A stretch of 64,000 nt of DNA from positions 12,452,635 through 12,516,634 of the forward strand of contig NC_087079.1 of assembly GCF_026151205.1 (NCBI RefSeq), read 5' to 3'. Of the stretch, positions 1,309-63,280 are shown in pieces; within the stretch, counting starts at the first letter, position 1; each line of letters begins with the position of its first letter. The notes below the pieces were generated by a model. That model did not search any database. It was not told the DNA's origin and was given only the letters and a program-made list of their open reading frames with translations. The translations under genes were made by a program, and so were the position numbers. Source of the stretch: Bolinopsis microptera. Its lineage: Eukaryota; Ctenophora; Tentaculata; Lobata; Bolinopsidae.

Positions 1309-4300
1309 ATCACCTGAAGGCAGCTCCCCTTCCTGACAGAGGAAGTTAGGCTGGTAGCACCCCACCGCCATCTCCGTGTCCCTCCTCCCGGACATACTTC
1401 GCTGGTTGATGTTAGCGCTACCCACTATTATATACTCATCATCTGCTATTAGCATCTGGAGGGGTTACTAATTACTCTAATTACTAATTAGTCTAATTAC
1501 TAATTAGTCAGGTTAGTCTTAACAACAATGGATTCCAATTTATGTCACAAAAACAAATTAACTACAAGAAATCAAAAGATGCAAAAATCAAAACTGCCAC
1601 TCTATTTGTAAAAATATCTCCAGGATCTTAACCTTAGAATGCACGTAGATAGGGAAGCGGTTCTTTTCCCTCAGGTGGATCTCAACATCAGTCTCCGGTT
1701 CTGCTAAATCCTCTGGAATTTCATCCCCTCGTACACCTGGGTTTCAAATGTTTTACACTTGTGTTTAATTCTAATACTGTCGATATCACAAAATTATACC
1801 TTCCAGAATTATAGTCATGGATACTCTCTGGGCTTTATTTTTTTGGCACGTGACAGATCTATCAAATGATCAGCGTGCAACAGCGACCAATCAAATCCAT
1901 AAATCATTGTCATGTGTCAAAACATGGTATAAGAAATTATTACTATCCTACCGATGCAGTAAAATGATAGATAATCAGTCGGGTGGGTGTCGAGTCCTTC
2001 CTCCTCGATGGTCTGCGCTATATACCTATACATCATCCTCATTGTAGCTGTCTGCCAGTATAGAATCTCTTGAACCTGCCACGACAATGAACTTTTCAGG
2101 TTGATATAAGGGTATAGCCAATTTGTGTTCTACTGTAAAATATAATTCAGTATAGTTTAATTTAAGGTGTTTATCGATTAAAACTATAGTTTACATATTT
2201 GTGTTGATAATTAGAATAATTGTACTGATACTGATACTGGTACTGATACTGGTACTGATACTGGTACTGGTACTTGTGCTGGTACTGATACTGATACTGA
2301 TACTGGTACTGATACTGGTACTGGTACTTGTGCTGGTACTGATACTGATACTGATACTGATACTGGTACTGGAACTGGAACTGGAACTGGTACTGGTACT
2401 GGTACTGGTACTGATACTGGTACTGGTACTGGTGCTGGTGCTGGTGCTGGTACTGGTACTGGTGTCTGGTACTGGTGTCTGGTACTAGTACTAGTACTGG
2501 TACTGGTACTGGTACTGGTACTGGTACTGGTACTGGTACTGGTACTGGTACTGGTACTGGTACTGGTACTGGTACTGGTACTGGTACTGGTACTGGTACT
2601 GGTACTGGTACTGGTACTAGTACTGGTACTGGTACTGGTACGGATACTGGTACTGGTACTGGTACTGGTAAGGTACGGATACTGATACTGGTACTGGTAC
2701 TGGTACAAGTAGTGAAACTAATGATGCACATCTACATACCGGCATGGAACTGGGTATTCCCTCTGGGTACATGGGTATAACACAGTAGACAGAGTGGTGG
2801 CATCCCTGTTTTATAGCCTCGATAATGTTCCGTACCAGCTCTATCGCTATCAAGTTGGTCGCTTTTTTAGGAATGTCATCTCCCTCCCAGACGTGCGCTG
2901 AGCCTGAGGAGAAATTATAATTGGTTGCTAATTAATCAACTAAATAATAAATTAATAGGCCACAATATTCCAGTCAGATGCCCTGTTATGGAGTATACAT
3001 GTTAAGTGTTAACCTACCTAAAAAGTACTGGTTCTCAATGAAGATGTGGTTTTGAGCACGTCTGATGTGATGAATGTATCCGGAGTGTATAGTGTCCTCT
3101 ATTTTCTCGGATCGCTCTGTCTTTAGCTTTCTTGCCCTCTCCATGTATGAAAACTGAAAAAAAAACCTCTGTCTTAGAAACCGGGTGTTCTCAACAGTCT
3201 TGATACAAGCGATTTACACATGTGTATTTTCTAGGACAGCACACTTACAGTTACACAATTTGCGCGAGCATCTGCCATCTGATCATTGATCATAATGATA
3301 TTTCATAGTAATTACTTAATTAATTAATTAATTACATAGTGACCTGGCAACTCTGACTAGTAATGGACCTCAGGAACTGCACGTTCCATCTATCATCTCC
3401 CTCGTAAACCTCCTCCAGATTATACTCAGATTCGTCAAGATAGTTCAACTCGTTGGAACCGTCGTCTTCAGCCGACCATCGCTCCTCAAAGTTACGTCGT
3501 ATGTCTTGAGCTATCTTGCCTTCCAAGTAACTGAGATAACAGATTTATAACAAACAACACCTGGTATTTAGTGCTTTTAATACTATGATCGTTTATTCTT
3601 TTATCACATTGAAATTGATATACCAACAAAATTTAGAATGATCGTATCCACTTCCAGCCACGAGACATCGATGATGGTTATGACGCTGGTATGGTTCTAG
3701 ACAATTATTAGGAAACTACCGTTTTTACCAAGATTGTTTTTGCTAAGAGGTTATGCCATCATTCGATAAATGACAGCAATCACGTCCTTTGACCAAATCT
3801 ACCTCGATATATAAAGAATTTAGCAAGAATTCAAATCAGTCCATTAATAAGCGATTTAATGGTGACTGAAATTCGTTTGAAGTTGACTTAATTAATGCAT
3901 CCTTGCTAGATGAACTGCTAAATTCTTAATGCTGAGATGCGGTAATCTTGACCAATAAACAGCAAGATCTTCAAATACAGACATTTCAAGACAGTTAACA
4001 CAAACAATTTCACAGTCACATGGTAACCATATGGTAACCACGTGGTAACCACGTGGTAACCACATGGTAACCACGTGGTATAACCCACCTGTGAATGTCA
4101 TGCCAGGGCTGTCTAGGTCCAGCCTCGGCCCGGACAGTCACGCAGTTCTGGTAGAAGTCATGAGCTGCGTGTTTGTCTAGGAGGGTTGAGAAGAGGGGGT
4201 GTTGGGGGGTGTCGTATCTGCCATCTGTCAGGTCTAGTCCTCCTACAAACGCCACTACACGTAATCTGTTTGGAGAGGGTTTATTATAGTTGGAGTACAG

Positions 4301-7300
4301 TGTGATCATGTGGGTAACACGACTCTTGTTCGACGGCAATGTTTTCTTGTGTTTGAAGTGATATCTCAAATTTGACACATTATATGAAGTACAGGATGAT
4401 CCCGTGTTACAGATATGCAGTGTGATTATGCCGAAGGAAATGTATTGTCATTATATCGTAACGATAATATCGTACGTTTAGAGTACAGACCTCTCGTCGT
4501 CCTCGTTTATAGAAGGAGAATCGCAGATAATACTCTTTTGGTGATGAGAGTATATCAGTCGGGTCATCGTATCCCCTGAGGAGGACTTTAAATTAACACA
4601 AATATCCGCTCAAATAAATGGAATCCATTTGTGGAGACTGTCAAACAAGCACAGCTCGGAAAAAAGGAGATTTAACACAAGGATATATTCTATTACTGAA
4701 CCAGTACCGGATGTTCCACTTTCTGTACAACCACGTGCACATCTCTTCACTGTAACACGTGTGTCCTCGAAGTACTCTGCCGTATCTGTGTCATGTGTCC
4801 CCACCAGACTGGGAATCATGTCGTCATATTCGTCCCAGATCTGAAATGGTTGAGGTGAGGATTTACTTCCCAAGCACTTAACAATATACATATAACTTAT
4901 CAGTATGCAAATTTATAGCCTCATCATCATGCAGTACACGATGCTTTCACACATGTTAATTAAAAACGAGTATATTTACGGCGCGCGCATTGAAAAGGAA
5001 TGACGATGCCACTCTTTTTACATCTAAATGTCGTCTAAAGCATGGCAATATGTGAAATAAAATGTTTATAACGTGCAGGAGCTGAAAAGGTAGGTCTACA
5101 CTCTACGTGTCCACAAGTCAATGTAATATGATCATTGTTCGTTACATATGATACCTTTACATCGGAATGTGGCTCCATATATATGATAAATAGCTGTGAT
5201 AACTTTCGCATATTATTTGCTGATTGATAAACTTTTGTATGTATTATTATATGTTTTGACTCTCATCTACTAATTAACATTATAATGAATAATAAAAAAC
5301 CGCTAATCTGAGATACAGTGTGAATATCAGGAACTATAGAAGACACAATATTGGGGCAAAATGCACATCTGACTTCCTATCTTCACTTGATACGCTTCCT
5401 TGTTATGACAACTTTTTACAGGTCACTGGACATTGTGTTGTTACTTGCAACACAGACTGTTTTCAGGGCATATACCCTGGAGTGTAATTACTTTGGACAG
5501 ATGTTCAAAGTTTTTAAAAAACAATCTTTAAAATGACCCTACAAACCAAACAGTAAATACCCAACATATTACACACCATGATAAATACAACGCAGCCCTC
5601 TTCTGCTTTTTCTATTAGTATTTCACCCAGTGTTCTGTTGTCAGCATCCTCTTCTCGGACTAGTACTACCTCCGTAAACACAGCCCAACCTAGAGTTTAT
5701 TGTTTATGGTATGAGATAATCAATGCTTTGTTAAATTCATGTTAGTGGATTAAATTGGGAAAACAACTTCATACAATCATTAACAAGAACACTGAACAAA
5801 ACTGCCAGTTTACATTATCGTGTAGCTGCTAAAACATTTATATCTTCAGTGCTGTTTCACCACAATGTACATCAGGTGTGTAATTATATTACGTCGTGGT
5901 TTAAGGAACGGTCGTATCGAGTGCACATTCCTTTCTCTATATGAGGATTGTATTTCACAAAATATATGGATGGTCTTGCACAAATAATTTGACACATATT
6001 ATATAGGTACAAGTTACGAGTTTCGACCGATACATTTTGAGATCAGATGTATACCTGTGATGTATATTACAGTATGTGATGTATACCTGTGATGTATATT
6101 ACAGTATGTGATGTATACCTGTGATGTATATGACAGTATGTGATGTATACCTGTGATGTATATGAACTTTGTAGCGTTGGTGATAACTTCGTACACTTGC
6201 TTCCAGGCGCCGGGGGGAACGTAACTCTCACCTAGAGCTGAGGGGAGATTCAAATTAGTTTTTATTAGATAAAAATTAGTTATTAGATAGGTTTTAAGTT
6301 TCATGTCACAAACGTTATCTGGGAAAATTTAAAATTGGTTAGGTGGTCCAATGTTTTATCGGGTCTAGTTTTATTTTTTATTTTATTTGGTCTAGTTAGT
6401 CATTTTGATGATTTAAGTACTCCAGTAGAGGTAGAGTTTACAAAGGAAGGAGGGAAGTAATGTTTTGGAATCTGATATGTAAGTAAGATTTGTATTTCTG
6501 CCAATAACAGAATAACAAGTTTGTGGTATTTCGAATAATGACGAGTATTGTGTGTGTCGCATATTACATTTTCTATTTATTTACATTATGGCAATATTCA
6601 AAATATCTCCCAACACGACAATCAATAGTCATATATTATATATATGACTATGATATAATATAATATGTATCATGTGATAGTATCTTACTGTGTTCTATTC
6701 AGGAAAATGGTATTTTGTCAGTTTACTTCAAGCTGCTACGCACAAACATTAGCTCTTGTTAGAATTAATAACAGTATTATATTATGTATATTGTGTCTTT
6801 ATCAACTACTGCACGGTGGACAGTTCAATCATTATTCATGCACGTTTACTTCATATTCAACAATTCATTGAACAAAGTTAACAGTTATGCTTATCGTCTT
6901 CTGACCGAGATTTCTCGTTTAAAACTTTGTTACAAAAACAAAAATTGTCTTCATCGCATGTAAATCTGCAGAAAGTATTTCAATTTGTGTGAATCAAAGA
7001 GAAGTCTTTAACAGAGTTGATGTAATTGTTATAAGTATACTGTGTATCAAACAGCGTGCAATAAACTACACTATTGTATATATACAATATATATATTGTA
7101 TAATATAACAATATATATATTATACAATGTATATATTGTATAATATAACCACAAGTTTACATAACTTATCATGTAGTTTGGCACATATTATTATGCAGCT
7201 CATAGAGCTACGTGGTGAATATTTACATGTTGAGGGCATATGGGCTTCAGAGCGTTATAAAAACATAATTATAAAATTTGTATAGGCATTTAGTCGACCC

Positions 7301-10300
7301 CAACGTTAATGTGGCTCTTGCTATGTTGGGGGAGGGGGGGGGGGCACACAGGTACGTTTCGCCACTGTACATGTTGACACAACACTTACTAGAATACATT
7401 ATTATATTTACACTACACAATACATTTTATTTACACAACACAATACATTATATTTACACTACACAATACATTATATTTACACTACATAATACATTATATT
7501 TACACTACACAATACATTATATTTACACTACACAATACATTATATTTACACTACACAATACATTATATTTACACTACACAATACATTATATTTACACTAC
7601 ACAATACATTATATTTACACTGCACAATACATTATATTTACACTGCACAATACATTATATTTACACTACACAATACATTATATTTACACTACACATTACA
7701 CAATACATTATATTTACACTACACATTACACAATACATTATATTTACACTACACAATACATTATATTTACACTACACAATACATTATATTTACACTACAC
7801 AATACATTATATTTACACTGCACAATACATTATATTTACACTGCACAATACATTATATTTACACTACACAATACATTATATTTACACTACACATTACACA
7901 ATACATTATATTTACACTACACATTACACAATACATTATATTTACACTACACAATACATTATATTTACACTACACAATACATTATATTTACACTACACAA
8001 TACATTATATTTACACTACACATTACACAATACATTATATTTACACTACACACTACACAATACATTATATTTACACTGCACAATACATTATATTTACACT
8101 ACACAATACATTATATTTACACTACACAATACATTATATTTACACTACACAATACATTATATTTACACTACATAATACATTATATTTACACTACACAATA
8201 CATTATATTTACACTACACAATACATTATATTTACACTACACAATACATTATATTTACACTACACATTACACAATACATTATATTTACACTACACACTAC
8301 ACAATACATTATATTTACACTGCACAATACATTATATTTACACTACACAATACATTATATTTACACTACACAATACATTATATTTACACTACACAATACA
8401 TTATATTTACACTACACAATACATTATATTTACACTACACAATACATTATATTTACACTACACAATACATTATATTTACACTACACATTACACAATACAT
8501 TATATTTACATTACACAATACATTATGCATATGTAAACACAAATTAACGCATGAGAGCACCTTCCTGTTATACATTACACAGCGGTTAAAGTAACTACTT
8601 GTAAACCGATCACATGTCACGTACTGTTATTGTATCAACATTACACATTATACATTTAGCTGATAAACGTTAGTGTTTAGTGTTTTCTGTAGTACATCAT
8701 GTGGCAACTATAATGATGGTGTTGTGGTGTACACAAATAAAACACAGCAGTTGAAGTAAATAAGGAGTGTTGATCTTACATGATGTAAATATAATTATGG
8801 TTAATATATAAATTGTCAACATATAAACTTTATAACTAGGGAATATAAATTATAAACTTTATAAGGGGGAGATTGAAAATGGTCATATTGTAAATAGAAT
8901 GTGATATTCCCTTATCTTGGTACGTATAACATTATCTATCATCAATCATAACTCTCGGCCTAAATTCATTGCACCGAGTTAAACACTAAATTCGTTGCAG
9001 TACCAATTTATAACGAGATGCGGTTACCAAAATCCTTTATTATTTAAAGCTATGAAAGCTCATCTTTTTTAGCTGTAAAGTACGCACCGAGCAGATAATG
9101 CCTTTTGTTTTCCGCCTCCGTCGAATGAATGACTTTCATGGCCTGATAATGAATATTTAAAAAAAAGAAAGTGTCTTTCGTATATCCTAAATGTTTTTTA
9201 TCACCAAAGTGTTTCTGTTAGTATGCTGTCATTCCATTGTCATTCCTTTGTTAATCTATTAAAGCTAGGCTGTCTGTAAATAGGTGAATTTATGAAATTA
9301 TTTTGTGGACTAATCTATGAGAACAAACAAATAATTTGAGGACAACATGACACTTCAAAACTTTGAACATAATACGAGGAAATATGGACAGAACTGAACA
9401 AGAACAAAAGCCACGTTCAAAGACTGAGGAATCAGGAGGACTCTGCAATCGGTTTGGGATCGACGTTACGTACTTTGATTTTCCAACTTTAAAGCTGACT
9501 GAAGAAACTAGGGAATTAATTTTACTTTCCTAAAATTAAATCGTTGATTTTATTTCTATATCACTGTTTTTCAAACATTCCAGTACAGTGTGCAGAAAGT
9601 TGGAGATTTAAATTTTGGAAGTATGTAGGGATCGAGATCTGATATCGATCGTAAATACTAAAAATACACTAGCACAGTTATTGTAACTGCAGTTTTACAC
9701 TAATTGCAGGTACCACCCGTATTCACACTCAAAATTGAGTTTAGTCATTTTCCAATACGAGATTGGGGACAGGTTCTATAAAAAACAAACAACAAACAAT
9801 TACCAGTGGGAACCACTGTACAGTGTACATGTTACATAACTACCCCACACACATGTTACAGGCCAGTTGGTAGATCACCGACCGGCTATAAGCCGGCTAA
9901 TAACCGGCTATAAGTCGGCTTATAGCCGGCTACAATTTTTATAGCCGGCTATAAGCCGGCTTATAGCCGGTTAGTAGCCGCTTACATTTGTTGTTGAGCG
10001 ACGGCTATTAGCCGGTTATAAGCCTGCTATTAGCCGTTTTTGGTATTAAAAGTGGTTATAAGCCGGCTATAAGCCGGCTATAAGCCGGTTATAAGATATT
10101 AACTCAACTACATCGTACTGAACGATAGTCAGGAGCCGGCTATAAGAAATTCAGTGAAAACGCGAACGGCTATTAGCCGGTTATAAGCCGGCTATTAGCT
10201 GTTTAGGTATCGAAAGTGGTTATAAGCCGGCTATAAGCCGGTTATAAGATATTAACTCAGTTCAGTACGATGAAGTTAAGTTAATATCTTATAGCCGGCT

Positions 10301-13300
10301 CCTGACTATCGTTCAGTACGATGAAGTTGAGTTAATATCTTATAACCGGCTTATAAATCAAGAGGCTTGCATATAATGAACATATTGACACGGGTGCAGA
10401 GGTGAGTCTGTACGGAACCTAGTAGTTTCAGATCCTTGTTTAACTTGCCGTACAGCAAGGTCATCCACTACTTTAGCCCGGCGAGGCACATAACTCCCTC
10501 TACAACTCCATGACAAATGTTTCATATATACTAGCCGAGTTCACAAGTTATATCCTTGTGTTTGAGAAGAGCTCGTTAGAACTGCTTCCTTTCCCTTCAG
10601 TATCCCACAGTCTCTCGAGTTTCGTAACTGCCAGAGAACTCTCTTAAACAATTACTAGACTCGGTGATTATAAATCAAGAGGCTTGCATATAATGAACAT
10701 ATTGACACGGGTGCAGAGTTGAGTCTGTACGGAACCTAGTAGTTTCAGATCCTTGTTTAACTTGCCGTACAGCAAGGCTTATAACCACTACGGCTATAAG
10801 CCGTATAGCCGGCTTATAACCACTTTCGATACCTAAACGGCTAATAGCCGGCTTATAACCGGCTAATAGCCGTTTTCACTGAATTTCTTATAGCCGATAC
10901 CAAAAACGGCTAATAGCCGGCTTATAACCGGCTAATAGCCGTCGCTCAACAACAAATGTAAGCGGCTACTAACCGGCTATAAGCCGGCTTATAGCCGGCT
11001 ATAAAAATTGTAGCCGGCTATAAGCCGGTTTATAGCCGGCTTATAACCGGCTTATAGCCGGTCGGTGATCTACCAATTTCCCATGTTACATAACTACACG
11101 TGTGTTACATAACTACTCCACACACATGTTACATAATTACACGTGTGTTACATAATTACACGTGTGTTACATAATTACACGTGTGTGGGGTGTAGTAGAT
11201 ACATGTGACAACCCTCCAGAGGCATCATGTAGCCTCCAGGCACGACAAACCCCGTCAAACCCCGACATATCCCGACAAACCCCGACATATCCCGACAGAC
11301 CCCGACAAACCCCGACGTGTCGAGATATGTCGCATCATGTCGGGCCCACCGGCTACATGAGGCCCACCGGCTACATGAGGCCTCCATGGGATTTAAAATT
11401 AAAATTTAAAAATAAAATTTAAAAAAATTAAAAGTTTAAAAAAATAAAATTTTTAAAAAATAAATAAAAAAATTAAAAAAAAACACAACCCCATTGATCA
11501 AACTTCTTTAGGCAACTTCTAATCACTTTTCATCCATTATTAACGAATTCCGACAAACCCTGACAAACCCCGACAAACCCCGACAAACCCCGACACACCC
11601 CGACAAACCCTAACAAACCCCGACAAACCTCGACGTGTCGAGATATGTCGTATCATGTCGGGCCCACCGGCTACATGATGCCTCTCCAGGGAGTTCAGTA
11701 AGTCTAATAGTTTAGTGTTAGACTCTGGGAGTTTATCAGGTTATCGTAGGTCCGGGTCAGTATGGTGTTTATTAAGGATTCAGGGAGTAACTGTTTCAGT
11801 TATAGGTATTAGGTAAGTGTTGTGATAAGGATTTTTAGGGGTTGTCCGGCTATAATTCAGTCATTTTAGCTAAATCCAGGCTAACAAGTACGTCTGAAGT
11901 ACTCAACCATTTTTTAAAGATAAAGAAAGAAAGAAGTTTACTCCATACGATGAATCCATGTCTAAAATATACAGTATCTTTTGAGTAAAGTAAGATTAAA
12001 ATGGACACTTAACGGAGTGGGGACCACACGGCTATTATCCGGATTTAGTGGGGACCACACGGCTATTATCCGGATAGAGTGGGGACCACACGGCTATTAT
12101 CCGGATTTGGAAAGCCGGGAATCAGATTTCAGGCGAGTTTGTTTGGTTGCTGTTACACGAGCCTCGTGATATGAGTCAGGGGTGTAGGTATTATTAAGTA
12201 TTGTAATACAGGAAACCTTATCAATATGAGATTGACCTCTGACCGATGCGTTTTGTTTTAAATTCCTAATTATCACACGACTAAATTTAAACTGCGGTAT
12301 TAAGGGGAATAGAACTTGAATGTGCTATCATTTCCAAAGTTTGGTCATGTACGTATAATTCGTTAACTGAATATTCGTGAATACCAAGGTACAGGTGGTA
12401 CTACTTACTAGAAGATATAGCGCATAGGAATAACGCCCAAACACTGTACACCTGATGTAAACAATATAATGTACACAATATAATGTACACAATATAATGT
12501 ACACAATATAATGTACACAATATAATGTACACAATATAATGTACACATTATAATGTACACGATATAATGTACACGATATAATATACACAATATAATGTAC
12601 ACGATATAATGTACACAATATAATGTACACAATATAATGTACACAATATAATGTACACAATATAATGTACACAATATAATGTACACAATATAATGTACAC
12701 AATATAATGTACACAATATAATGTACACAATATAATGTACACAATATAATGTACACATTATAATGTACACAATATAATGTACACAATGTCACAAATATGA
12801 TTAGATGTACTTAGTCTGCTATGCTTTATTGCTATTTCATATTCGGCCAATTCCAGAATACTCTATCGTAGAAAATATGCTCTGTTTTATTCACATATTG
12901 AGTGTTGACGAAAAATGATGTCAACTTGTTATGTTAATATGCCAGGTACATTTCAGTGCGTGCAATATTGTTCTAATGTTACTTGATCTCGAAAAGTGCA
13001 GCATTTAGTAACACTATAACACACGATGAATGATATATTTTGTAATGAAATAAACATATAATATCCACGGAGAGCATATCTTCAACAGCTCTTCAAAACA
13101 ATTCTCCCCTACTAAGATAAATAACAAATTACAAATAAATTACCAATAACAAATTACAAATAAATAACCAATAACAAATTACAATGCCTATACTACTAAC
13201 CAGTGGTGATGGGCTCATGTTCAGGTTGAGCAGTGTTTACAATGCCTACTAACCAGTGGTCATGGGCTCATGTTCAGGTTGAGCAGTGTTTACAATGCCT

Positions 13301-14944
13301 ACTAACCAATGGTCATGGGCTCATGTTCAGGTTGAGCAGTGTTTACAATGCCTACTAACCAGTGGTGATGGGCTCATGTTCAGGTTGAGCAGTGTTTACA
13401 ATGCCTACTAACCAGTGATGATGGGCTCATGTTCAGGTTGAGTGGTGTTTACAATGCCTACTAACCAGTGGTGATGGGCTTATGTTCAGGTTGAGCAGTG
13501 TTTACAATGCCTACTAACCAGTGGTCATGGGCTCATGTTCAGGTTGAGCAGTGTTTACAATGCCTACTAACCAGTGGTGAAGGGCTCATGTTCAGGTTGA
13601 GCAGTGTTTACAATGCCTACTAACCAGTGGTCATGGGCTCATGTTCAGGTTAAGCATTGTTTACAATGCCTACTAACCAGTGGTCATGGGCTCAAGTTCA
13701 GGTTGAGCAGTGTTTACAATGCCTACTAACCAGTGGTGATGGGCTCATGTTCAGGTTGAGCGGTGTTTACAATGCCTACTAACCAGTGGTGATGGGCTCA
13801 TGTTCAGGTTGAGCAGTGTTTACAATGCCTACTAACCAGTGGTCATGGGCTCATGTTCAGGTTGAGCAGTGTTTACAATGCCTACTAACCAGTGGTGATG
13901 GGCTCATGTTCAGGTTGAGCAGTGTTTACAATGCCTACTAACCAGTGGTCATGGGCTCATGTTCAGGTTGAGCAGTGTTTACAATGCCTACTAACCAGTG
14001 GTGATGGGTTCATGTTCAGGTTGAGCAGTGTTTACAATGCCTACTAACCAGTGGTGATGGGCTCATGTTCAGGTTGAGCAGTGTTTACAATGCCTACTAA
14101 CCAGTGGTGATGGGCTCGTGTTCAGGTTGAGCAGTGTTTACAATGCCTACTAACCAGTGGTGATGGGCTCGTGTTCAGGTTGAGCAGTGTTTACAATGCC
14201 TACTAACCAGTGGTGATGGGCTCATGTTCAGGTTGAGTAGTGTGGTCAGCGTCCTGGAACAGAGTAACACGACAGTTCTCTCTCATCGGAAAGTAGCACG
14301 CTGGTACCTGGGGGGGGGGGGGGGGGTGGGGGTGTTGCTATTATTTGGGAGATAAGAGAAACATCTGGGTATTCTAAAGTGCCCAAAAATAAGAAGGGAT
14401 AATCTGGGTATCCTAAAGTGCCCAAAAATAAGGGATAATCTGGGTATCCTAAAGTGCCCAAAAATAAGAAGGGATAAGTTTTGATGTGGTAAAGGGTACA
14501 GATTACCCTTTAACTTCCACTTCTGCTTGATGTACACAGGAACAGTACAGAAACAGTAGAGTACAGAAACAGTAGAGTACAGAAACAGCAGAGTACAGAA
14601 ACAGTAGAGTACAGAAACAGTAGAGTACAGAAACAGTAGAGTACAGAAACAGTAGAGTACAGAAACAGTAGAGTACAGAAACAGTAGAGTACAGAAACAG
14701 TAGAGTAAGAAACAGTAGAGTACAGAAACAGTAGAGTACAGAAACAGTAGAGTACAGAAACAGTAGAGTACAGAAACAGCTACTGATTGAAACTTACTTT
14801 CCTACTGCATTCGTTTTTGTTTTCGTTACAATAAGGCTCGTATCTGAGTGCGATTTCCAGTAGTCCCCTCTCCTCTCCATCAAGCATCAACTGTACAGGT
14901 CCCTCAAACTCGCCCCCGTTTTCAACAAACTCACGGAAATTTAT
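1309..14944 (-). CDS. C2-type phospholipase D, exons 4-16 (end of C2 domain and catalytic domain)
   Basis: Thirteen - strand exons, in transcript order: 14798-14944, 14208-14307, 6151-6237, 5577-5689, 4708-4840, 4491-4575, 4089-4265, 3344-3530, 3018-3153, 2740-2903, 1952-2075, 1633-1736 and 1309-1455. All have GT-AG borders and compatible phases. The product continues from the C2 exons at 42812-44015. It is colinear with plant PLD alpha: VTLFQDA, the [11 protein letters not shown] helix, [13 protein letters not shown], first HKD motif HQKSIICD (about residues 296-303), [35 protein letters not shown] and second HKD motif HSKMLIAD (about 609-616) followed by GSANINQRS. Both catalytic His-Lys-Asp sets are intact, so hydrolysis of phosphatidylcholine to phosphatidic acid is expected. 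The last 100-odd residues are missing: the exon at 1309 ends in a good donor, GTGAGT, and the rest should lie left of the window. Two exons end inside minisatellites (see repeats). Confidence 0.9.
2220..2706. repeat. GGTACT hexamer microsatellite in a PLD intron
   Basis: About 490 bases of (GGTACT)n and variants (GATACT, GGTGCT, GGAACT), uninterrupted from about 2490 to 2620. It lies between PLD exons 13 and 14 and begins about 30 bases inside the exon-13 donor. Because the unit is a multiple of three, long open frames appear on both strands; they are not genes. Confidence 0.95.
4018..4084. repeat. 11-bp tandem repeat next to the PLD exon 10 donor
   Basis: Six copies of an 11-bp unit (GTGGTAACCAC and variants ATGGTAACCAT). 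The array ends 4-5 bases from the donor of the exon at 4089-4265. Most units hold the near-palindrome CACGTG. Confidence 0.85.
6040..6166 (-). repeat. 32-bp repeat carrying four copies of the PLD exon 6 splice donor
   Basis: Four 32-bp units place the same exon end and donor (ATACATCACAG then GTATACATC on the - strand) with last exon bases at 6151, 6119, 6087 and 6055. The true exon uses 6151, since only this joins in frame to the next exon (FIYITG then WAVFTEV). The others would add multiples of 32 bases, and the frame shifts after one or two units. Confidence 0.85.
7071..7148. repeat. AT-rich palindromes
   Basis: Alternating TATATA, ACAATATATATATTGT and TTATACAATGTATATATTGT segments form overlapping self-complementary stretches within the 8-kb PLD intron 5. 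No gene is seen around it (6238-7400). Confidence 0.7.
7400..8527. repeat. 23-bp minisatellite, about 1.1 kb
   Basis: Roughly 45 units of ACACTACACAATACATTATATTT, some with an extra 8 bases (ACATTACA) giving a 31-bp variant. Single-base variants (CTGCAC, CTACATAAT) recur at intervals, showing higher-order duplication of blocks. It gives a 438-codon open frame that is plainly repeat sequence. Confidence 0.95.
8528..9851. other. PLD intron 5 sequence with no recognised feature
   Basis: AT-rich sequence. I see no coding exon, RNA gene or ordered repeat on either strand. Confidence 0.5.
9861..11081. mobile_element. Long inverted-repeat element built of AAGCCGGCTTA-type repeats
   Basis: The two ends are inverted copies (both contain GGTAGATCACCGACCGG read inwards) and are followed by arms made of short GC-centred palindromes such as ATAAGCCGGCTTAT and TATAGCCGGCTATA. 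CATGTTACA (9 bases) flanks both sides (9852-9860 and 11082-11090), which fits a target-site duplication, although the flank is itself somewhat repetitive. The left arm contains a further hairpin: about 60 bases at 10085-10146 return inverted at 10286-10342. The centre holds a direct repeat of about 110 bases (10345-10455 and 10669-10778). There is no transposase, so it would be non-autonomous. A 9-base duplication suits Mutator- or Merlin-like families, but I cannot assign one. Confidence 0.7.
11212..11691. mobile_element. Small inverted-repeat element with CCGACAAACC minisatellites
   Basis: The ends share 23 bases in inverted orientation with two mismatches (AGAGGCATCATGTAGCC on each). Inside are two blocks of CCGACAAACC-type tandem repeats, each closed by a stretch containing GTCGAGATATGTCG and GGGCCCACCGGCTACATGA. 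Between them is A/T-rich low-complexity DNA (11390-11490). I see no clear target duplication and no coding sequence. Confidence 0.6.
11692..12457. repeat. Intron sequence with a 30-bp repeat (three copies)
   Basis: Three copies of a 30-bp unit (GAGTGGGGACCACACGGC followed by TATTATCCGGAT) lie at 12014-12106. Nothing else is recognised in this stretch. Confidence 0.7.
12458..12787. repeat. 14-bp minisatellite (AATATAATGTACAC)
   Basis: About 23 units, almost perfect. The open frames across it on the - strand (Tyr-Cys-Val-His-Ile repeats) are by-products of the period. The following 400 bases (12788-13183) hold only a short AAATTACAAATA repeat. Confidence 0.95.
13184..14250 (-). repeat. 53-bp minisatellite made from the PLD exon 5 end and its splice donor
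   Basis: About 20 units of 53 bp. Read on the - strand, each unit holds about 36 bases matching the end of PLD exon 5 (CAACCTGAACATGAGCCC and ATCACCACTG), the donor GTTAGT and about 17 intron bases. The real exon (14208-14307) ends at the last unit. Reading past its donor meets TAG immediately (ACT GGT TAG), so only the copy at 14208 gives a full protein. Units differ by single substitutions, for example GTGATGGG versus GTCATGGG. Confidence 0.9.
14308..14475. repeat. Poly-G/C acceptor tract and 35-bp repeats
   Basis: A run of about 17 G on the + strand (poly-C on the - strand) forms the polypyrimidine tract of the exon 5 acceptor. It is followed by three copies of a unit of about 35 bp containing CTAAAGTGCCCAAAAATAAG. 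Confidence 0.75.
14534..14780. repeat. 16-bp minisatellite (AGTAGAGTACAGAAAC)
   Basis: About 15 units filling PLD intron 4 almost up to the donor of exon 4, which is GTAAGT at 14792-14797 on the - strand. Unlike the exon 5 and exon 6 arrays, it does not include the splice site. Confidence 0.95.
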
Positions 14945-15671: not shown

Positions 15672-16852
15672 TTAGTTCTCAGTCACTGCAGGATTGGAAT
15701 ATCTTGAAATGAGTTATCACACTCTCAGTAATTGTTACTCCTACAAAGTTACCTGTCAGAGATATTGATTAGTTAATTAATAAGTTAAATTATCTTCAAT
15801 CTTGCAATGAAACAATTAATTTCATCATCAGCCTTATATTGAAAAATAACATAATCTCGAATAATCTACGTAATGTGCCAAAATGTAACTTATAAAGTTC
15901 ACATACCAAGGATGTCCCAGTAAGATCTAATTTTCTCCAGAAGGTCCACAGGCAGTGTCCGGTTGAAAATATCCTCGGAGTACAGGATGTCCCACTGAGT
16001 TATCTCCTTCTTCTCCTCGCACTCACATTCAGTCCTGTTCTTCTCAGCAGCATCATTCCTTCCTTCCCGGGATCCTGGTGTGGGTTCCTCTGTCTCCTCC
16101 TTCTCTGTGGGACAGGTCCGAGCAGGACATCCTGGTTCCACCTCCGTAATGTTCCCGTTTCTCTGCTCCAGGAGCAGATCCTCCCATCGGAGATACCGGA
16201 CTCTCCCGTAACTCTCCTCCACGTCCGAGCAGAGTCCTGCCTCTTTCATCTCCAGTACCTCCTCCCCTGTTAGCTCCTTTGCGAAAAAGTTAACCTTAAA
16301 AAGCTCCCCTCCAAATATTTCACTTGCGGATCTGCTACCGCCGTCATAATGATTTTCATTACCGAAGAAAAGGAATCCATCCAATCCAAAAGTTCTGGAC
16401 GGCGTGGCACCCTGTCCAACAAGTTCCCCGTTAAAGTATACCTTTCTAGTGTTGGACGATGTACTCCAGGAAGTACAGTAGTGGTACCATGTTCCTTTAG
16501 AGGGGTTTATCTCGCTGCTCAAGTCTAAGCTGGAGTCCAGAAAGTAGTTCCTATCACCATTATCCGAGATCCATATTTCGTGTTGGTGAGAACTGGTAGC
16601 ATAAGATAGCCAGGTAGGACGGATATTAGAGGACAGCGATTTAACCCAGGAACAGACTGTTAGCGCGTTTTGTAGAGGTGACATATCGGGCTGGAACATG
16701 ATGAAATCCTCCAATGTATCCCCGAACTTGAGAGCGAACTGCCGTCTGTCTACCAGTCTGGAACCGTCTGTAGTGTTGAACCCAATAGTGGGGCCGGTCA
16801 GAATAAATAGTAGAACAACTCCTAAGTTTACCTTCTGGTGGACTCTCATCAT
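15672..16852 (-). CDS. Secreted pentraxin-domain protein, copy 1
   Basis: Exon 1 is 15907-16852 and a proposed terminal exon is 15672-15685 (GTATGT donor, CTGCAG acceptor), ending ...DILVTEN. The first ATG of the pair at 16852 is chosen; a signal peptide follows (LGVVLLFILTGPTIG). Residues about 35-215 form a pentraxin/concanavalin-like domain: FALKFGDT, LTVCSWVKS, WLSYATSS, the exact pentraxin signature HYCTSW (H-x-C-x-S/T-W), VYFNGELVGQG, LFFGNENHYDGG and GGELFKVNFFAKELTGEEV. The tail is acidic, with a CPARTCP stretch, an ECECEE motif and an NRT site. Pentraxins are calcium-dependent secreted recognition proteins. Here the GNENHYDGG loop keeps only part of the usual Glu-Gln-Asp calcium set. 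The gene is nested in the PLD intron on the same strand. Confidence 0.85.
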
Positions 16853-18788
16853 ATTTATCAATAACTATTTGGAAAGTATGAAATGAAATTAAAAACTGTA
16901 TTTACACCCTACATAAACAATAAAATCATCAAAGATAGAGATCACTAATACCAGATCGGCTATCCATTACAATTTACATGTATTACCAATGATTCGAAAG
17001 TAACATCATCAAAAGACAAGTTCAAATTTAGGGAAAACTGGGACTTCTATGAAAAAAATTATAAAATTTCTGAATCGTTCAAAAATGGAACTGTAAAAGT
17101 AATTCTGAAAATTCCAAGTACAACAATTGGTGTTATTAGCTCAAGTAAAATTTAGAGAAATAACGTCGCAAAGAATAATGAAAAGGTTACAAAGTGGGCA
17201 CTTTATAAAGGTTACCTTAGGTGGGGCTGGGTTAAGAATGTTGGTAGGATAAAAATGTTGTGATAACCTAGATTTATGAGTATGGGTTTGTAAACATGTT
17301 AACGTAAGATTTCTGGTGAGACCAGTTATCTGAACTCTGACTGTTGTTTTGGTCAGTTACTATGAACATAACGTTAAACCTATTGTTCCTGTAATATTCG
17401 ACTATCTGAAAGATTTCAACAGTCCTGTTCAAGGAGTCAAAGCACTTAGCGTTGACACATTGCAACTGCTGCACTTTCGCTTTTGGGTACTAATATCAGA
17501 CGAAGCCTTATATCACGGTCAACTCTTTGCTTCGTGAAATATGGAATTTACTGTTCAGCAAGAAAAGTTATTTATTTGAATACATAGTTTGTTGAGCATC
17601 ATTTCTATTATTGAGAAAATACAGTTTTTTACTCGCGATCTTATTTCATTAAGATTTCACCTCGCCATAATAAAATCAATAACGTCACTGTAATGCAAAT
17701 GATCACAGTAGCAGTAGTATTTACAACTCTGCACTTCCCCATCACCATATCTCGAGCACGTTTTAAAGTTATGTGAAATCTCCACCTGAGGTTCACAATT
17801 ATCCTTGCGCAACTAGGTAAAACAAAGTATTTTAGTAAAACAAAGTATTTTATTTATTAGCAGTGCAATCAATTCATATGATATTATTATAAGAATATAA
17901 TAGTATGTCACACCAATTTAACTGCTACGTTTGAGTAGTCGTGCCATGGCTAAATCTAACTAGGACCAGTGGTGTCGATTAACATTTAATAGGTGAGTCT
18001 AAGTGATACAAATGGAAAATTTTATGAAAATACGGATCAAAACACAGATCCAAGGACAAGAAGACCCCACTGCAGGACCATTCATGCTATTGGCTTGTGC
18101 ATGGCCCGAAAGGTTCCAGTTGTCCAGGAAACTGTACGTAGCTGGTCAACTAGTTTTGAATTCAGGCTAGGCTTGATGAGTTCTGGGGTTTCTAGAGGTA
18201 AGATTTGATGGTGCCAATCGAGCACAAGACTATGGACAATCTTACTTATTTTAAGTGTTCATAATTTAGATATTCAGCTCCCTCACTCCCTGTCTCGGAC
18301 CGAATCTCTGAATCACAACCGAATAAATCGGGTGAAATATTTGCCTTGGAACTAAAGGGATACCAAGTCCTTTTCAGTTTAGTAACTTACGAGGAGCCAA
18401 CTTAGTCGCTCAATCATGGTGTGAAAAACAGTATTTTATCGTATTTGTTTTTTATTTATTCCTAAAATTTTATTAATTCCTAAAATTTGCACCAAGTGGG
18501 TCTCACGTTTTGAACTTAATAATATGTTTAATTGGGTATGTAGTAAAAATAAACGACAAAGTTATTCAAAATTTAGATAAGGTAAAATAACAAGTTACAA
18601 AATATCAAGTTACCAAATTTTGTAATAATAGCTTTCGCTTAAAAAAGAATAGCTCATCTAAGTTTCAGATAACTGACTAACCATTTTAAAAAGTAAAAAC
18701 AAAGATGCAAAAACATTTCGAATCAAAAAGAATTGAATATTAAATTATCTCAATTAAGTGGATTGTCCGAAGTTTAAATCCTCAGTCA

Positions 18789-20038
18789 CTATAAAGCAGA
18801 TTGTCCTTGTTGGGAGAATTCTCCTTCATCTCCGGTAAGTAAGTTCTCAGTCACTGCAGAATTGGAATATCTTGAAATGAGTTATCACACTCTCAGTAAT
18901 TGTTACTCCTACAAAGTTACCTGTCAGAGATATTGATTAGTTAATTAATTAGTTAAATTATCTTCAATCTTGCAATGAAACAATTAATTTTATCATCAGC
19001 CTTATATTGAAAAATAACATAATCTCGAATAATCTACATAATGTAGCAAAATGTAACTTATAAAGCTCACATACCAAGGATGTCCCAGTAAGATCTAATT
19101 TTTTCCAGAAGGTCCACAGTCAGTGTCCGGTTGAAAATCTCCTCGGAGTACAGGATGTCCCACTGAGTGATCTCCTTCTTCTCCTCACACTCACATTCTG
19201 TCTCGTTCTTCTCAGCAGCATCATTCCTTCCTTCCCGGGATCCTGGTGTGGGTTCCTCTGTCTCGTTCCTGGTCTCCTCCTCCTCCGTCTCTGTGGGACA
19301 GGTCCGAGCAGGACATCCTGGTTCCACCTCCGTAATGTTCCCGTTTCTCTGCTCCAGAAGCAGATCCTCCCATCGGAGATACCGGACTCTCCCGTAACTC
19401 TCCTCCACGTCCGAGCAGAGTCCTGCCTCTTTCATCCCCAGTACCTCCTCCCCTGTTAGCTCCTTTGCGAAAAAGTTAAGCTTAAAAAGCTCCCCTCCAA
19501 ATATTTCACCTGCGGATCTGCTACCGCCGTCATAATGATTTTCATTACCGAAGAAAAGGAATCCATCCAATCCAAAAGTTCTGGACGTGGTGACACCCTG
19601 CCCAACAAGTTCCCCGTTAAAGTATACCTTTCTACTGTTGGACGATGTACTCCAGGAAGTACAGTGGTGGTTCCATGTACCTTTAGAGGGGTTTATCTCG
19701 CTGCTCAAGCCTAAGTTGGAGTCCAGAAAGTAGTTGTAATTACCATTTTCCGAGATGAGTATTTCGTGGTCATTAGAACTGGTAGCATAAGATAGCCAGG
19801 TAGGATGGCTATTAGAGGACAGCGATTTAACCCAGGAACAGACTGTTAGGGCGTTTTGCAGAGGTGACATATCGGGCTGGAACATGATGAAATCCTCCAA
19901 TGTATCCCCGAACTTGAGAGCGAACTGTCGTCTGTCTACCAGTCTGGAACCGTCTGTAGTGTTGAACCCAATAGTGGGGCCGGTCAGAATAAATAGTAGA
20001 ACAACTCCTAAGTTTACCTTCTGGTGGACTCTCATCAT
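18789..20038 (-). CDS. Secreted pentraxin-domain protein, copy 2
   Basis: Exon 1 is 19075-20038 and the proposed terminal exon is 18789-18853. Organisation matches copy 1: signal peptide, pentraxin domain with signature HHCTSW, acidic tail (here longer, ETEEEETRNETEEPT). In the terminal exon TTA replaces the TAA of copy 1, so the protein would run on through LLTGDEGEFSQQGQSAL to a TAG at 18789. The signal peptide equals that of copy 1. Differences from copy 1 cluster in the segment from about SSN-SH-PTW to GTWNHHC, where loop residues change (HQ to ND, W to L, DR to NY). Confidence 0.85.
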
Positions 20039-21956
20039 ATTTATCAATAACTATTTGGAAAGTATGAAATGAAATTAAAAACTGTATTTACACCCTACAT
20101 AAACAATAAAATCATCAAAGATAGAGATCACTAATATCAGATCGGCTATCCATTACAATTTACATGTATTACCAATGATTCGAAAGAAACATCATCAAAA
20201 GACAAGTTCAAATTTAGGGAAAACTGGGACTTCTATGAAAAAAATTATAAAATTTCTGAATCGTTCAAAAATGGAACTGTAAAAGTAATTCTGAAAATTC
20301 CAAGTACAACAATTGGTGTTATTAGCTCAAGTAAAATTTAGAGAAATAACGTCGCAAAGAATAATGAAAAGGTTACAAAGTGGGCACTTTATAAAGGTTA
20401 CCTTAGGTGGGGCTGGGTTAAGAATGTTGGTAGGATAAAAATGTTGTGATAACCTAGATTTATGAGTATGGGTTTGTAAACATGTTAACGTAAGATTTCT
20501 GGTGAGACCAGTTATCTGAACTCTGACTGTTGTTTTGGTCAGTTACTATGAACATAACGTTAAACCTATTGTTCCTGTAATATTCGACTATCTGAAAGAT
20601 TTCAACAGTCCTGTTCAAGGAGTCAAAGCACTTAGCGTTGACACATTGCAACTGCTGCACTTTCGCTTTTGGGTACTAATATCAGACGAAGCCTTATATC
20701 ACGGTCAACTCTTTGCTTCGTGAAATATGGAATTTACTGTTCAGCAAGAAAAGTTATTTATTTGAATACATAGTTTGTTGAGCATCATTTCTATTATTGA
20801 GAAAATACAGTTTTTTACTCGCGATCTTATTTCATTAAGATTTCACCTCGCCATAATAAAATCAATAACGTCACTGTAATGCAAATGATCACAGTAGCAG
20901 TAGTATTTACAACTCTGCACTTCCCCATCACCATATCTCGAGCACGTTTTAAAGTTATGTGAAATCTCCACCTGAGGTTCACAATTATCCTTGCGCAACT
21001 AGGTAAAACAAAGTATTTTAGTAAAACAAAGTATTTTATTTATTAGCAGTGCAATCAATTCATATGATATTATTATAAGAATATAATAGTATGTCACACC
21101 AATTTAACTGCTACGTTTGAGTAGTCGTGCCATGGCTAAATCTAACTAGGACCAGTGGTGTCGATTAACATTTAATAGGTGAGTAGGTTTTATGAAAATA
21201 CGGATCAAAACACAGATCCAAGGACAAGAAGACCCCACTGCAGGACCATTCATGCTATTGGCTTGTGCATGGCCCAAAAGGTTCCAGTTGTCCAGGAAAC
21301 TGTACGTAGCTGGTCAACTAGTTTTGAATTCAGGCTAGGCTTGATGAGTTCTGGGGTTTCTAGAGGTAAGATTTGATGGTGCCAATCGAGCACAAGACTA
21401 TGGACAATCTTACTTATTTTAAGTGTTCATAATTTAGATATTCAGCTCCCTCACTCCCTGTCTCGGACCGAATCTCTGAATCACAACCGAATAAATCGGG
21501 TGAAATATTTGCCTTGGAACTAAAGGGAAACCATGTCCTTTTCAGTTTAGTAACTTACGAGGAGCCAACTTAGTCGCTCAATCATGGTGTGAAAAACAGT
21601 ATTTTATCGTATTTGTTTTTTATTTATTCCTAAAATTTTATTAATTCCTAAAATTTGCACCAAGTGGGTCTCACGTTTTGAACTTAATAATATGTTTAAT
21701 TGGGTATGTAGTAAAAATAAACGACAAAGTTATTCAAAATTTAGATAAGGTAAAATAACAAGTTACAAAATATCAAGTTACCAAATTTTGTAATAATAGC
21801 TTTCGCTTAAAAAAGAATAGCTCATCTAAGTTTCAGATAACTGACTAACCATTTTAAAAAGTAAAAACAAAGATGCAAAAACATTTCGAATTAAAAAGAA
21901 TTGAATATTAAATTATCTCAATTAAGTGGATTGTCCGAAGTTTAAATCCTCAGTCA

Positions 21957-23206: not shown

Positions 23207-23330
23207 ATTTATTAATAACTATTTGGAAAGTATGAAATGAAATTAAATATTTTATTTACGCCCTACATAAACAATACAAATCATCATATATAGAGATCAC
23301 TAATATCAGATCGGCTATCCCAACCGTTCT

Positions 23331-27430: not shown

Positions 27431-27650
27431 ATAGTTTATAGTAAATACACACGATTGCAGAATAGAGGAGCACAATTGGGTTCCTTGTTCTGCGACTGTG
27501 TTTCCTCGGTGGGCCGACAGGTTTTTGTTGTGTAGTAGTGCTGGGGAAAAAAACGCTTTAACTATCAATGAGAGTAAAAATTTTTAATTCTTGACCTTAG
27601 TGCCACAGTTTCTGTGGTAAAAACAAATTTATAGTTAAACGTTATATATT

Positions 27651-42811: not shown

Positions 42812-44015
42812 CTCATGAGTTCCGATAGAGTCGTTCTTCCCAATATCATCGTCTACCACCTCTATCGATAACACGTCTCCAATATGGTTGATAAATGTGA
42901 CGAACTTCTGATTCCAGATTGGGCTCGTACTAAATAGATATTGCTTAAAGTTATTGGTGATATTTATCGTCGTCGATTCTCTACAGATATATTATGTCAT
43001 TTTAAACATACTGAATGGAGTAAATTAAAACATTAAGTAAACACTATGAACATAGCAGACGATGTAAATTATATTGTAACTTACTTGTCTTCTACAATGC
43101 TAGTTTTGGCTATCTTTGCTCCATCGAGTTTGACCTGAGTGGAATCGGCACTTTAGCAAAATAAAACTTAAAATGAAACATGCACTAGGAATGTGCATTT
43201 TTTGGCTTTGCAGATACAAAAATCATATTTTCTACCTTAACTTTAAAAGGAAGCATTTAATGGTGTTTTGTTATCAATAACGCATATATAAATGTGCTAG
43301 TTGCGGTTATTTTGCACCCTTCCAAAAGTCTCTAGCACATTCCTATCGAAGTTTTAGAAAAATCTGTACATACGAAAACCGACAAATATGCCTAAATTTG
43401 TTGTATGACTTTGAGGTCCAAAAGATCAACTTTCCAGTTGAATAAACACATTTTTGAGGGCATCAAAAACTGCGCCAGAATTCAGAGAACATTTAAATGT
43501 CAAGCATCAAAACAATCCGATGTTCCTTGACGGAATTTTTGGTCAAAACAAGCCTGAAAAGTAAAATTACCACTCTTGGACTTTTAAAAATTTATAAAAA
43601 TGCAGCCTTTTCAGAAACGATATCAAGATTTTACACTGATCTTGAACAAGATATGAATAAACTTCTTGCAGAATTTCAGCTCGATATCAACAAAAAAACA
43701 CTCATGGGGGCCAGAGTAAGAGTTTAAAACATGTGCTCTAAAATGGATGTTCCCGGTTTCCATAATCATAATATATTACAGTCAAATTTACTAACCAGTC
43801 TGAGCATTATTCCAGCCTAAACATTCTTTGTCACCATTGTTTTTATATAAGTTCATTGCTGTATAATTCTGTATCATTTGATTAAAGTTTCAAATTAAAT
43901 CACTCACCTTGACATAAGCATCAGTAGCTCCAGCAAAGAAACCATCCGTGTCGGGAAGATCGATAGCCTCCTTAATCTCCACGTGGATCAGGCCTCGCAC
44001 CGTGGGCTCAGACAT
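42812..44015 (-). CDS. C2-type phospholipase D, exons 1-3 (start and C2 domain)
   Basis: Exons are 43908-44015, 43085-43134 and 42812-42929. They splice in phase to give MSEPTVRGLIHVEIKEAIDL..., then FFAGATDAYVKVKLDG, TSIVEDNTSPIWNQKF and a LSIEVVDDDIGKNDSIG segment, with the calcium-binding aspartates of a C2 domain in their usual places. The next exon in phase is 14798-14944 ([11 protein letters not shown] to [10 protein letters not shown]), which completes the C2 fold. The gap of about 28 kb holds the pentraxin genes. The C2 domain should recruit the enzyme to membranes on a calcium signal. A 3' splice site (CACTTAG) lies 9 bases before the ATG, so an upstream non-coding exon or a trans-spliced leader is likely. 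Intron 43135-43907 holds nothing I recognise. Confidence 0.88.
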
Positions 44016-61262: not shown

Positions 61263-63280
61263 GGGAACACTGTTTAACGTGAAGTGTGATCCAATACACG
61301 AGTTCGGAGAGAACCACTACAACGAGATCCTATTCAACCCTCAGGGCAACATGGTCGGACTTTGTGGGTTCGGGAACCTTCGAGGTAAGACTTGAGATGG
61401 AGGTTTTGATAAAGGGGTGGGCATGTTTTTTGAATTCCCAAGGGGTCAAAGAGGAAGTTATGTTAATTCTGTTGAATTTACCTTTTTCTGTGGAATGAAG
61501 TACATGAATTTTCTTTCATTTCTGGCGGCATTATCATTTAAATTATTGGTGATAATAAATGTGAAACCCAAATAAAAGATATCTAATTTTTTTAGGCATT
61601 TTCAAGTCATCTCAGTCCTTATTTCATTACATTGTATCCTGTATAACATTGATAAAAATTGAAAGTTTTTATTGGTGATTATAAATGTGAAACCCAGATA
61701 AAAGATATCTAATTACTATCTAATTACTATTACTAATTACTAATAATTACTAATTACTAATAATTCCAGGCAAGATAAAGTTCTATGAAACGGAGAACAA
61801 TAAGTTGTTATCAGACTTTGTGGCAGCGGATGCTACTTTCTTCGAATGGGCCCCCTGTGGAGATGTCTTTATCACAGGTGGGTCTTTCATTTATTTTCTA
61901 GAGCTTTTAAATGCAGTGATGGGACTGTACTTTGAGCAAACCCTGTGCGATGATCAAGAAGCAAGGACCACTGCATAAAAACCTCCTATACCCCATTATT
62001 AATTATACCCTAATTTTAAGAATTGAGCTTACTATTCCTTCGTGGCAACCAACTTCCCCCTGTCACATCTCACTCCCAGGTACCCTGTACTCCATTTTGA
62101 AAGAGTAACCCTATTATATTGACTCCTTCTAATTGTCCCCTCACAGGTACCCTGTACTCCATTTTTAAAGAGTAACCCTATTATATTGACTCCTTCTAAT
62201 TGTCCCCTCCCAGGTACACTGTACTCCATTTTGAAAGAGTAACCCTATTATATTGACTCCTTCTAATTGTCCCCTCCCAGGTACACTGTACTCCATTTTG
62301 AAAGAGTAACCCTATTATATTGACTCCTTCTAATTGTCCCCTCCCAGGTACACTGTACTCCATTTTGAAAGAGTAACCCTATTATATTGACTCCTTCTAA
62401 TTGTCCCCTCCCAGGTACCCTGTCACCCCGACTGAGACAAGACAATGAGTTTAAGCTGTGGGATGTGTCCGGTAAGATACTCCACCACTACCAGGTCCCA
62501 ACAGATGAGACCCAGCTGTGGCAGCTGATGTGGATCAACCCTGCTAAGCTGCTACCTCCCCCTGTTGTTCCTAGACCTGCCACCTCTAAGGAGATTGCTG
62601 CTGGAAAACCCCAGGTTTGTCAGCTTTTGTTTGTCTTAGCTCATCTGAAAATCCTAATATAGCATATTTTTTCATTAATCATAAAACTGAATTCTTGAGT
62701 TATAATTCCATATTAAAGCTTCGATATAAAATTAGAAATTAACCAATGTAAATACTTGAAAGAATGACTCGGCAGTATCTCCATTTTGCAACAACGCTTT
62801 TGATTGTTCGGCATTCACTTTTGACTGCTCCAAGATGATTTATTCTCCAATTTACCCTTAGTACACCCTAATCCCTCAATGCCTCCACCCCCTCAGGCGT
62901 ACAGACCACCTGGCTCCCGACAGGGTCCAGCTGCAGCTACCCGCTCACTCCTCCCCAACGTTCAAGGTGGAGTCTACAAACCCGGCAGTGATGCCCAACG
63001 AAACCAGCCCTCTAGGCAAGCCCAGAAAAATCAGAGAAAACGAGAAAATAGGGCCAAGCAAATTGAGGATGAGAAAGTTCCAGCGCCTACGATGCAAGAT
63101 TTGCAGTCTACCATAGTTGATGAGAGGGAGAAGAAGGTCAGGAATCTTAAGAAGAAATTGCACCAGATCGAAAAATTGAAGGGCCAGGTGGCCCAGGGCA
63201 AGACTTTGGAGAAAAATCAGATGGATAAGATTGCCTCTGAGAATGATCTTATCGAAGAGATAAAACGATTAGAGTTATAA
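61263..63280 (+). CDS. EIF2A: Eukaryotic translation initiation factor 2A, 3' half
   Basis: Exons are 61263-61384, 61770-61877, 62415-62614 and 62897-63280, all GT-AG and in phase, giving about 271 residues. GTLFNVKCDPIHEFGENHYN and GNMVGLCGFGNLRG, then TFFEWAPCGDVFITGTLSPRLR, EFKLWDVSGKILHHY and ELWQ-like QLWQLMWINP match the last WD40 blades of eIF2A. AYRPPGSRQGP, KNQRKRENR and a C-terminal coiled coil (KVRNLKKKLHQIEKLKGQ..., ending IKRLEL) match its basic tail. eIF2A delivers initiator tRNA to the 40S subunit at special start sites. The N-terminal 300 or so residues are not in the 900 bases upstream and may lie beyond intervening genes or be missing from the assembly. Exon 3 starts at the last of six tandem copies of its acceptor. 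Confidence 0.92.
62067..62420 (+). repeat. 67-bp repeat carrying six copies of an eIF2A splice acceptor
   Basis: Units of exactly 67 bases place CCCCTCCCAG followed by GTAC(C/A)CTGT, with exon-start positions 62080, 62147, 62214, 62281, 62348 and 62415. Each carries its own pyrimidine tract and a branch-like TTCTAAT. Only the last opens the real exon (GTLSPRLRQDN). Use of an earlier one would read GTLYSILKE or GTLYSIFKE (GTLYSILKE in the 62080 unit) and hit TAA, a premature stop. Confidence 0.9.

Follow-up and report, generated by a model that had tools for sequence, protein, structure and literature searches.

Twenty tandem copies of a 5' splice site in a minisatellite of a phospholipase D gene of the ctenophore Bolinopsis microptera, with similar arrays at other exon ends

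In poison-exon and alternative-5'-site regulation by nonsense-mediated decay (NMD), alternative sites lead to early stops. They do so too in the phospholipase D (PLD) gene of Bolinopsis microptera described here, but the alternative site of this gene is absent from its paralogue, PLD-B. In anatomy, the nearest precedent is the minisatellite of the human gene IFI6 (6-16), which, as far as the available description goes, likewise starts inside an exon and carries a donor in each unit. The IFI6 unit is said to be 12 bp long, so that extra units stay in frame, whereas the units found here, of 53, 32, 67, 29, 31 and 34 bp, shift the frame (the 36-bp unit of one acceptor array does not, and carries stops). 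In addition, several unrelated genes are affected here, and two of the arrays multiply an acceptor. To our knowledge, IFI6 is not known to show units that shift the frame, spread to unrelated genes or multiplication of acceptors. Work that cites the IFI6 report describes a minisatellite supplying several donors, with downstream repeat units serving as donors (PMC4526556). Among the entries listed by a search of an open-access library, there was no second case of a splice-site minisatellite. Choice among identical splice sites has so far been tested with pairs in minigenes. In the available text of one such study, a single acceptor is contested by identical 5' splice sites, as it is here, but with two designed sites in human cells in place of 3 to 20 natural ones (PMC9225289, Carranza et al.). 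The same text reports that, when an exon-defined human minigene carried a pair of identical strong donors (MaxEnt 10.9, introns of 365 nt), splicing went exclusively to the upstream one in all five constructs, and that when both donors were weakened the larger exons were mostly skipped and the smaller ones kept the upstream site (PMC9225289). It also gives an upstream preference in about 60% of human donor pairs of near equal strength, with short introns favouring the downstream donor; for acceptors, the upstream preference seen with short introns is reduced, not reversed, in strict exon definition (PMC9225289). In human DOK7, by the part of the report at hand, the downstream of two donors is preferred (PMC5585400).

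The window, that is, the whole stretch of DNA analysed here, covers 64,000 nucleotides (C8:12,452,635-12,516,634) of a genome that was searched over 264.65 Mb in 232 contigs. Its minus strand carries a PLD gene, PLD-A, in which 13 modelled exons (exons 4 to 16, from 14944 to 1309) join with matching phases into an open frame of 568 residues (Table 1). The C2-like exon found by eye further upstream makes the numbering of exon 5 reasonable, not proven. Judged by homology, PLD-A is of the C2-PLD (plant-type phospholipase D) type, with two predicted HKD motifs and nearer to plant PLD-alpha than to animal PLD1 or PLD2. The second active-site (HKD) motif was matched by Pfam in the model of exons 4 to 16, and the first, HHQKSIICD, aligns to the first HKD of PLD-alpha-1 and had no separate Pfam match. 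No Pfam C2 match was obtained on the same model, which starts at exon 4. The closest solved relative of exons 4 to 10 is Arabidopsis PLD-alpha-1 (6kz8, E 3.6e-48), and the matches of these exons to animal PLD1 and PLD2 among solved chains are at 1e-05 or weaker. A genome search with PF00614 gave two places among the matches listed, none of them in the window; short motifs split by introns escape such a search. Four similar minus-strand reading frames, laminin-G-like by eye (15899-16864, 19067-20050, 22235-23218 in two frames, and 26533-27435), sit within the probable 28-kb intron 3 of PLD-A. Long reading frames resembling retroelement proteins, also by eye, were seen at 27635-30383, 31494-33557, 34022-36571, 38056-40191 and 49961-51256.

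Table 1. Features of the PLD-A and eIF2A genes in the window (window positions; a slash marks the boundary between exon and intron)
Feature	Position	Strand	Details
Probable PLD exon 3	42812..42929	-	Resembles C2 by eye; predicted intron 3 of about 28 kb
PLD exon 4	14798..14944	-	Donor GAAA/gtaagt; gene model
16-bp array	14544-14779		Begins about 18 bp into the intron after PLD exon 4; TRF
PLD exon 5	14208..14307	-	100 nt, phase 0 to 1, donor ACTG/gttagt; gene model and PDB alignment across the junction
53-bp minisatellite	13193..14243	-	20 donors 53 bp apart; unit 1 holds the last 36 nt of exon 5; TRF period 53, 19.8 copies, 96% matches, score 1955
First 5' splice site of intron 5 (predicted productive)	14200..14207	-	GTTAGTAG
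PLD intron 5	6232..14207	-	7,976 bp, longest of 12 modelled introns
PLD exon 6	6151..6231	-	Donor ACAG/gtatac, phase 1; gene model
Second donor array, PLD exon 6	6046..6163	-	32 bp; donors CAG/GTATAC at 6150, 6118, 6086 and 6054; TRF
PLD exons 7-16	1309..5689	-	Both HKD motifs, open frame
eIF2A array	62073..62423	+	67-bp unit, six acceptor copies CTCMCAG/GTAC; TRF

The initial annotation had described a minisatellite that multiplies a 5' splice site about 20 times, in units of 53 bp that each contain the end of exon 5, a GT donor and some intron, and this description stands; its interval, 13184-14307, corresponds to exon 5 plus the array. GTTAGTA occurs at 20 of 20 minus-strand sites at an exact spacing of 53 bp (the G of the GT at 14207, 14154 and so on to 13200). 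The donor is G/GTTAGT, and its 9-mer reads CTGGTTAGT at 19 of the sites and TTGGTTAGT at the other one, in a sense-strand consensus unit of GCATTGTAAACACTGCTCAACCTGAACATGAGCCCATCACCACTG/GTTAGTAG. The array begins inside the exon, unit 1 holding its last 36 coding nt, which match the repeat with one difference in the unit alignment, and a donor is present in all 20 units. Splicing from donor 1 would give the 100-nt exon with the frame open, and the phases of the modelled exons fit this donor. Donors 2 to 20 would make exons of 153 to 1107 nt, and with a unit length of 53 (2 modulo 3) the frame is not kept. As had been noted before, these later donors meet a TAG at once: all 19 stop at the same one, just past the first donor. 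This TAG precedes the new junction by 51 to 1005 nt, and further junctions follow.

A partial second copy of PLD exons 4 and 5 with the start of the array lies 190 kb away (L001, G000:C8:12652500-12662000). Exon 4 is matched at 99.6% identity and the intron parts at about 94%, after which the copy becomes full of homopolymer errors; it is either a haplotype fragment or a recent duplication. Reading it as a shorter allele by its unit count was rejected, because unrelated sequence truncates its array, which is also full of homopolymer noise. Within the array of the window, the 18 internal units have a single change in the columns of the donor 9-mer versus 19 elsewhere, and a run of 22 columns, comprising the donor and the intron start, is invariant among them (gap test P 0.01-0.016, for a run chosen post hoc and units that are not independent). 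Such a run could reflect constraint. Constraint on the donors inside the array was nevertheless tried and rejected, given the post hoc choice of the run and the units of L001, which differ within it by eye. RNA structure hiding the downstream donors was rejected as well, since two stretches of 272 and 266 nt fold no better than their shuffles (z 1.02 and 0.13).

Of the 20 donors, the first looks ancestral. The junction of exons 5 and 6 made through it aligns with no gap to PLD-alpha-1 (6kz8), one 1-residue gap being located nine residues before. In PLD-B, on contig C3 (near 281-298 kb), exons 5 and 6 are fused into one exon that reads QDATCLPSPAHQQIKVHGSPLLARSAW, without an intron at this place, and the alignment with PLD-B has a 1-residue gap near the junction. 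Because of the alignment without a gap at the junction in PLD-alpha-1 and the intron-less PLD-B, donor 1 would be the old boundary, and its predicted role as the productive junction is supported. The donor position of exon 6 is kept in PLD-B, with one GTGAGT donor.

Splice-site arrays form a recurring class in this genome, with several donors and at least two acceptors in unrelated genes. At exon 6 of PLD-A, donors 2 and 3 shift the frame, which then runs into a stop in a later exon, whereas with donor 4 the frame is kept and 32 residues are gained without a stop. Within the same window, 48 kb away, the eIF2A array offers exon starts at 62080, 62147, 62214, 62281, 62348 and 62415. Only the last of them, predicted to be the productive one, keeps the frame, the other five meeting a TAA stop, and the alignment of the spliced eIF2A protein with solved eIF2A has no gap where the exons join. 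In a sample of loci chosen blind to arrays, a DDX42-like helicase (C1, near 14,022,600; best relative human DDX42, E 3.6e-49) has 18 CCT/GTAAGT donors; its alignment is gapless across donor 1, and donors 2 to 18 all meet a stop. The DDX42-like intron also ends in a run of C, similar to the acceptor of PLD exon 5, whose pyrimidine tract is a run of 17 C (window 14310-14326). PLD-B itself has six AAG/GTATGT donors 31 bp apart at e16', the exon with the second HKD, where the frame runs through the array without a stop, and three donors 34 bp apart at e9', the exon with the first HKD, whose start was judged by eye. An acceptor is multiplied in a DEAD-box exon on C13 (L098, near 10,581,000), in an array of 3.7 copies of 36 bp: TTGTTACAG/GTGAARTT is found in two units, 36 bp apart, and the upstream acceptor meets stops, which come from the acceptor array read in frame. 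Other candidates were discarded. The 40-bp array of PLD-B (22986-23178 of the joined stretch) begins about 120 bp inside the intron and was rejected as a donor array. By eye, the arrays at L111, L065 and L081 begin just past the donor and that at L106 sits just ahead of the acceptor, the splice site not being multiplied in any of them; the arrays at L028 and L038 were inspected and set aside.

The frequency of such arrays was derived from that sample, 117 loci with a total of 264,881 bp, scanned with TRF. Of 75 loci with partial or PLD matches, 14 were excluded because of stops or N, although L115, with one stop, was retained; the other 61 loci provided 39 donor and 45 acceptor ends. The 32 flagged loci among the 117 were inspected by eye (L095 being a neighbour of L048), and the 85 unflagged ones were judged by TRF alone, so that divergent arrays may be missed. 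Arrays span 2 of the 84 ends (L048 and L113). Two extra spanned sites are the L115 donor, at a neighbouring exon, and the L098 acceptor, from the dropped set. With L098 included, arrays span 3 donors out of 40 and 1 acceptor out of 46 (P 0.33), and two of these four ends belong to the same gene. When the kinase and DEAD loci are taken by themselves, the count is 2 of 72 with L098 and 1 of 71 without it. We rejected a bias of donors over acceptors, for which 3/40 versus 0/45 is obtained without L098 (P 0.10) and which is not shown once this locus is included. Pooling with the window gives 5/56 donors versus 1/62 acceptors (P 0.10), with denominators counted by hand and not blind to arrays, and without L098. 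In the introns of PLD-A, random placement of the 21 arrays with a period of 10 or more predicts 0.76 spanning arrays versus the 2 seen (P 0.17), and that of the 11 arrays with a period of 20 or more predicts 0.38 versus 2 (P 0.04). Array enrichment at PLD-A boundaries is weak and a mild one is possible; with these two P values, chance placement and survival may be enough. Arrays with a period of at least 10 make up about 35% of the intron bases of PLD-A; their share is 47% in the PLD-B stretch, 10.7% in the window as a whole and 3.3% in the 117 loci of the sample. The introns of PLD-B (L119-L122, C3:283,436-305,700) contain very large minisatellites (30 bp x 111, 41 bp x 76 and 51 bp x 40), and a single 41-bp array fills almost the whole of one intron of about 3.2 kb, reaching from close to the donor to close to the acceptor.

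The anatomy suggests that the array was founded by a tandem duplication of 53 bp with breakpoints in PLD exon 5 and just inside intron 5, although history and direction are read from the anatomy itself, and that this duplication grew into the 20-copy minisatellite. The exon-side copy would still encode the last 12 or so codons and, as homology supports, would be the ancestral donor. Human data point to a spliceosome that would take the first donor almost always, by pairing the nearest sites across the exon, while the other 19 would be largely ignored or would yield stop-bearing transcripts that are then discarded. The array would then be a tolerated by-product of minisatellite turnover in the introns of this genome, where some arrays start across an exon boundary. 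This whole reading, of a by-product array across an exon boundary that is tolerated with the first donor in use, is in our judgement the probable one, by a modest measure, and its by-product status is a default reading. We infer that the rule seen in human cells carries over to this animal. Given the exclusive use of the upstream donor in the minigenes, taking the first one may be a default and not a feat, and a 100-nt exon 5 followed by a 7,976-bp intron is in keeping with exon definition, under which donor 1 is expected to win. The GTTAGT of this array departs further from the consensus than the minigene donors. Short introns favour the downstream donor, and therefore mis-splicing is predicted at e9' of PLD-B, with its 114-bp intron; at acceptors the upstream preference is reduced and not reversed, which makes the eIF2A array harder to explain. 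These two are the hard cases for a choice of the nearest site across the exon.

The alternative that survives best, although we consider it unlikely, is noise: several donors would be used at real frequency and PLD output lowered, with no regulation of the choice. The same 9-mer in 19 of the 20 donors speaks for it, and in human IFI6, two downstream repeat units are reported, in the introduction of a later paper, to be used as donors (PMC4526556). However, minigenes with identical donors favour the first, in the available text of that study (PMC9225289), and PLD-A is intact over its 13 modelled exons. Lower still in probability, at roughly one chance in ten, is the tuning of PLD through NMD put forward in the initial annotation, in which some transcripts would use donors 2 to 20, carry the TAG and be removed by NMD, array length or splicing factors setting PLD output. 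Each of the 19 alternatives gives a premature stop, the same early one, with further junctions downstream, which is what such regulation would use. However, the alternative is not conserved in PLD-B, where the intron is absent, and the folds of the array are ordinary. The same anatomy, moreover, is seen at acceptors too and in genes unrelated to PLD, as would fit a general by-product of array turnover. Donor 4 of PLD exon 6 and the e16' array of PLD-B are read through without a stop, so that stops are not a shared design. NMD regulation of PLD by the array is possible, but the earlier claim is not supported.

U1 snRNP guards against premature polyadenylation (telescripting). Intron 5, the longest of the 12 that were modelled, opens with 20 donor-like sites, which might form a cluster of U1 snRNP sites shielding its 8 kb; this is very improbable, as four other arrays are in introns of less than 1 kb (DDX42-like 639, eIF2A 537, PLD exon 6 461 and PLD-B e9' 114 bp) and two arrays multiply acceptors. 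An assembly artefact, with the repeat collapsed, expanded or misplaced, is the least probable of all: the homopolymer noise of L001, 190 kb away, indicates that part of the contig is poorly polished, but the array described here is clean: its spacing is exact and its single-base variants are scattered. Moreover, similar arrays are found on contigs C1, C3 and C13.

These loci are natural experiments on the choice between identical splice signals: near-identical donors come in sets of 3, 4, 6, 18 and 20 and acceptors in sets of 2 and 6, in introns from 114 to 7,976 bp. Stops make many of the splicing errors visible. Even in conserved genes (DDX42-like, eIF2A), splice-site duplication can go far and the frame is not obviously lost. 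According to the available part of the genome paper, Iso-Seq and RNA-seq of B. microptera were used for annotation (PMC10232365), and with this Iso-Seq the choice rule may be directly readable. More tentatively, and with rather less than even confidence, we propose that splice-site-spanning minisatellites might occur genome-wide in this ctenophore, at about a percent or more of exon ends, including those of conserved genes. They would be survivable through a near-absolute choice of the exon-proximal site, and the intronic copies may act as templates for conversion that keeps the exon end and its donor from decay.

Short arrays of TACTAAT-like or CTAATTAG-like motifs were also seen at 61706-61765, adjoining the acceptor of the eIF2A exon that starts at 61770, and at 1465-1509, adjoining the acceptor of PLD exon 16 (exon start at 1455). 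In both cases, it looks as if a branch-point region had been multiplied.
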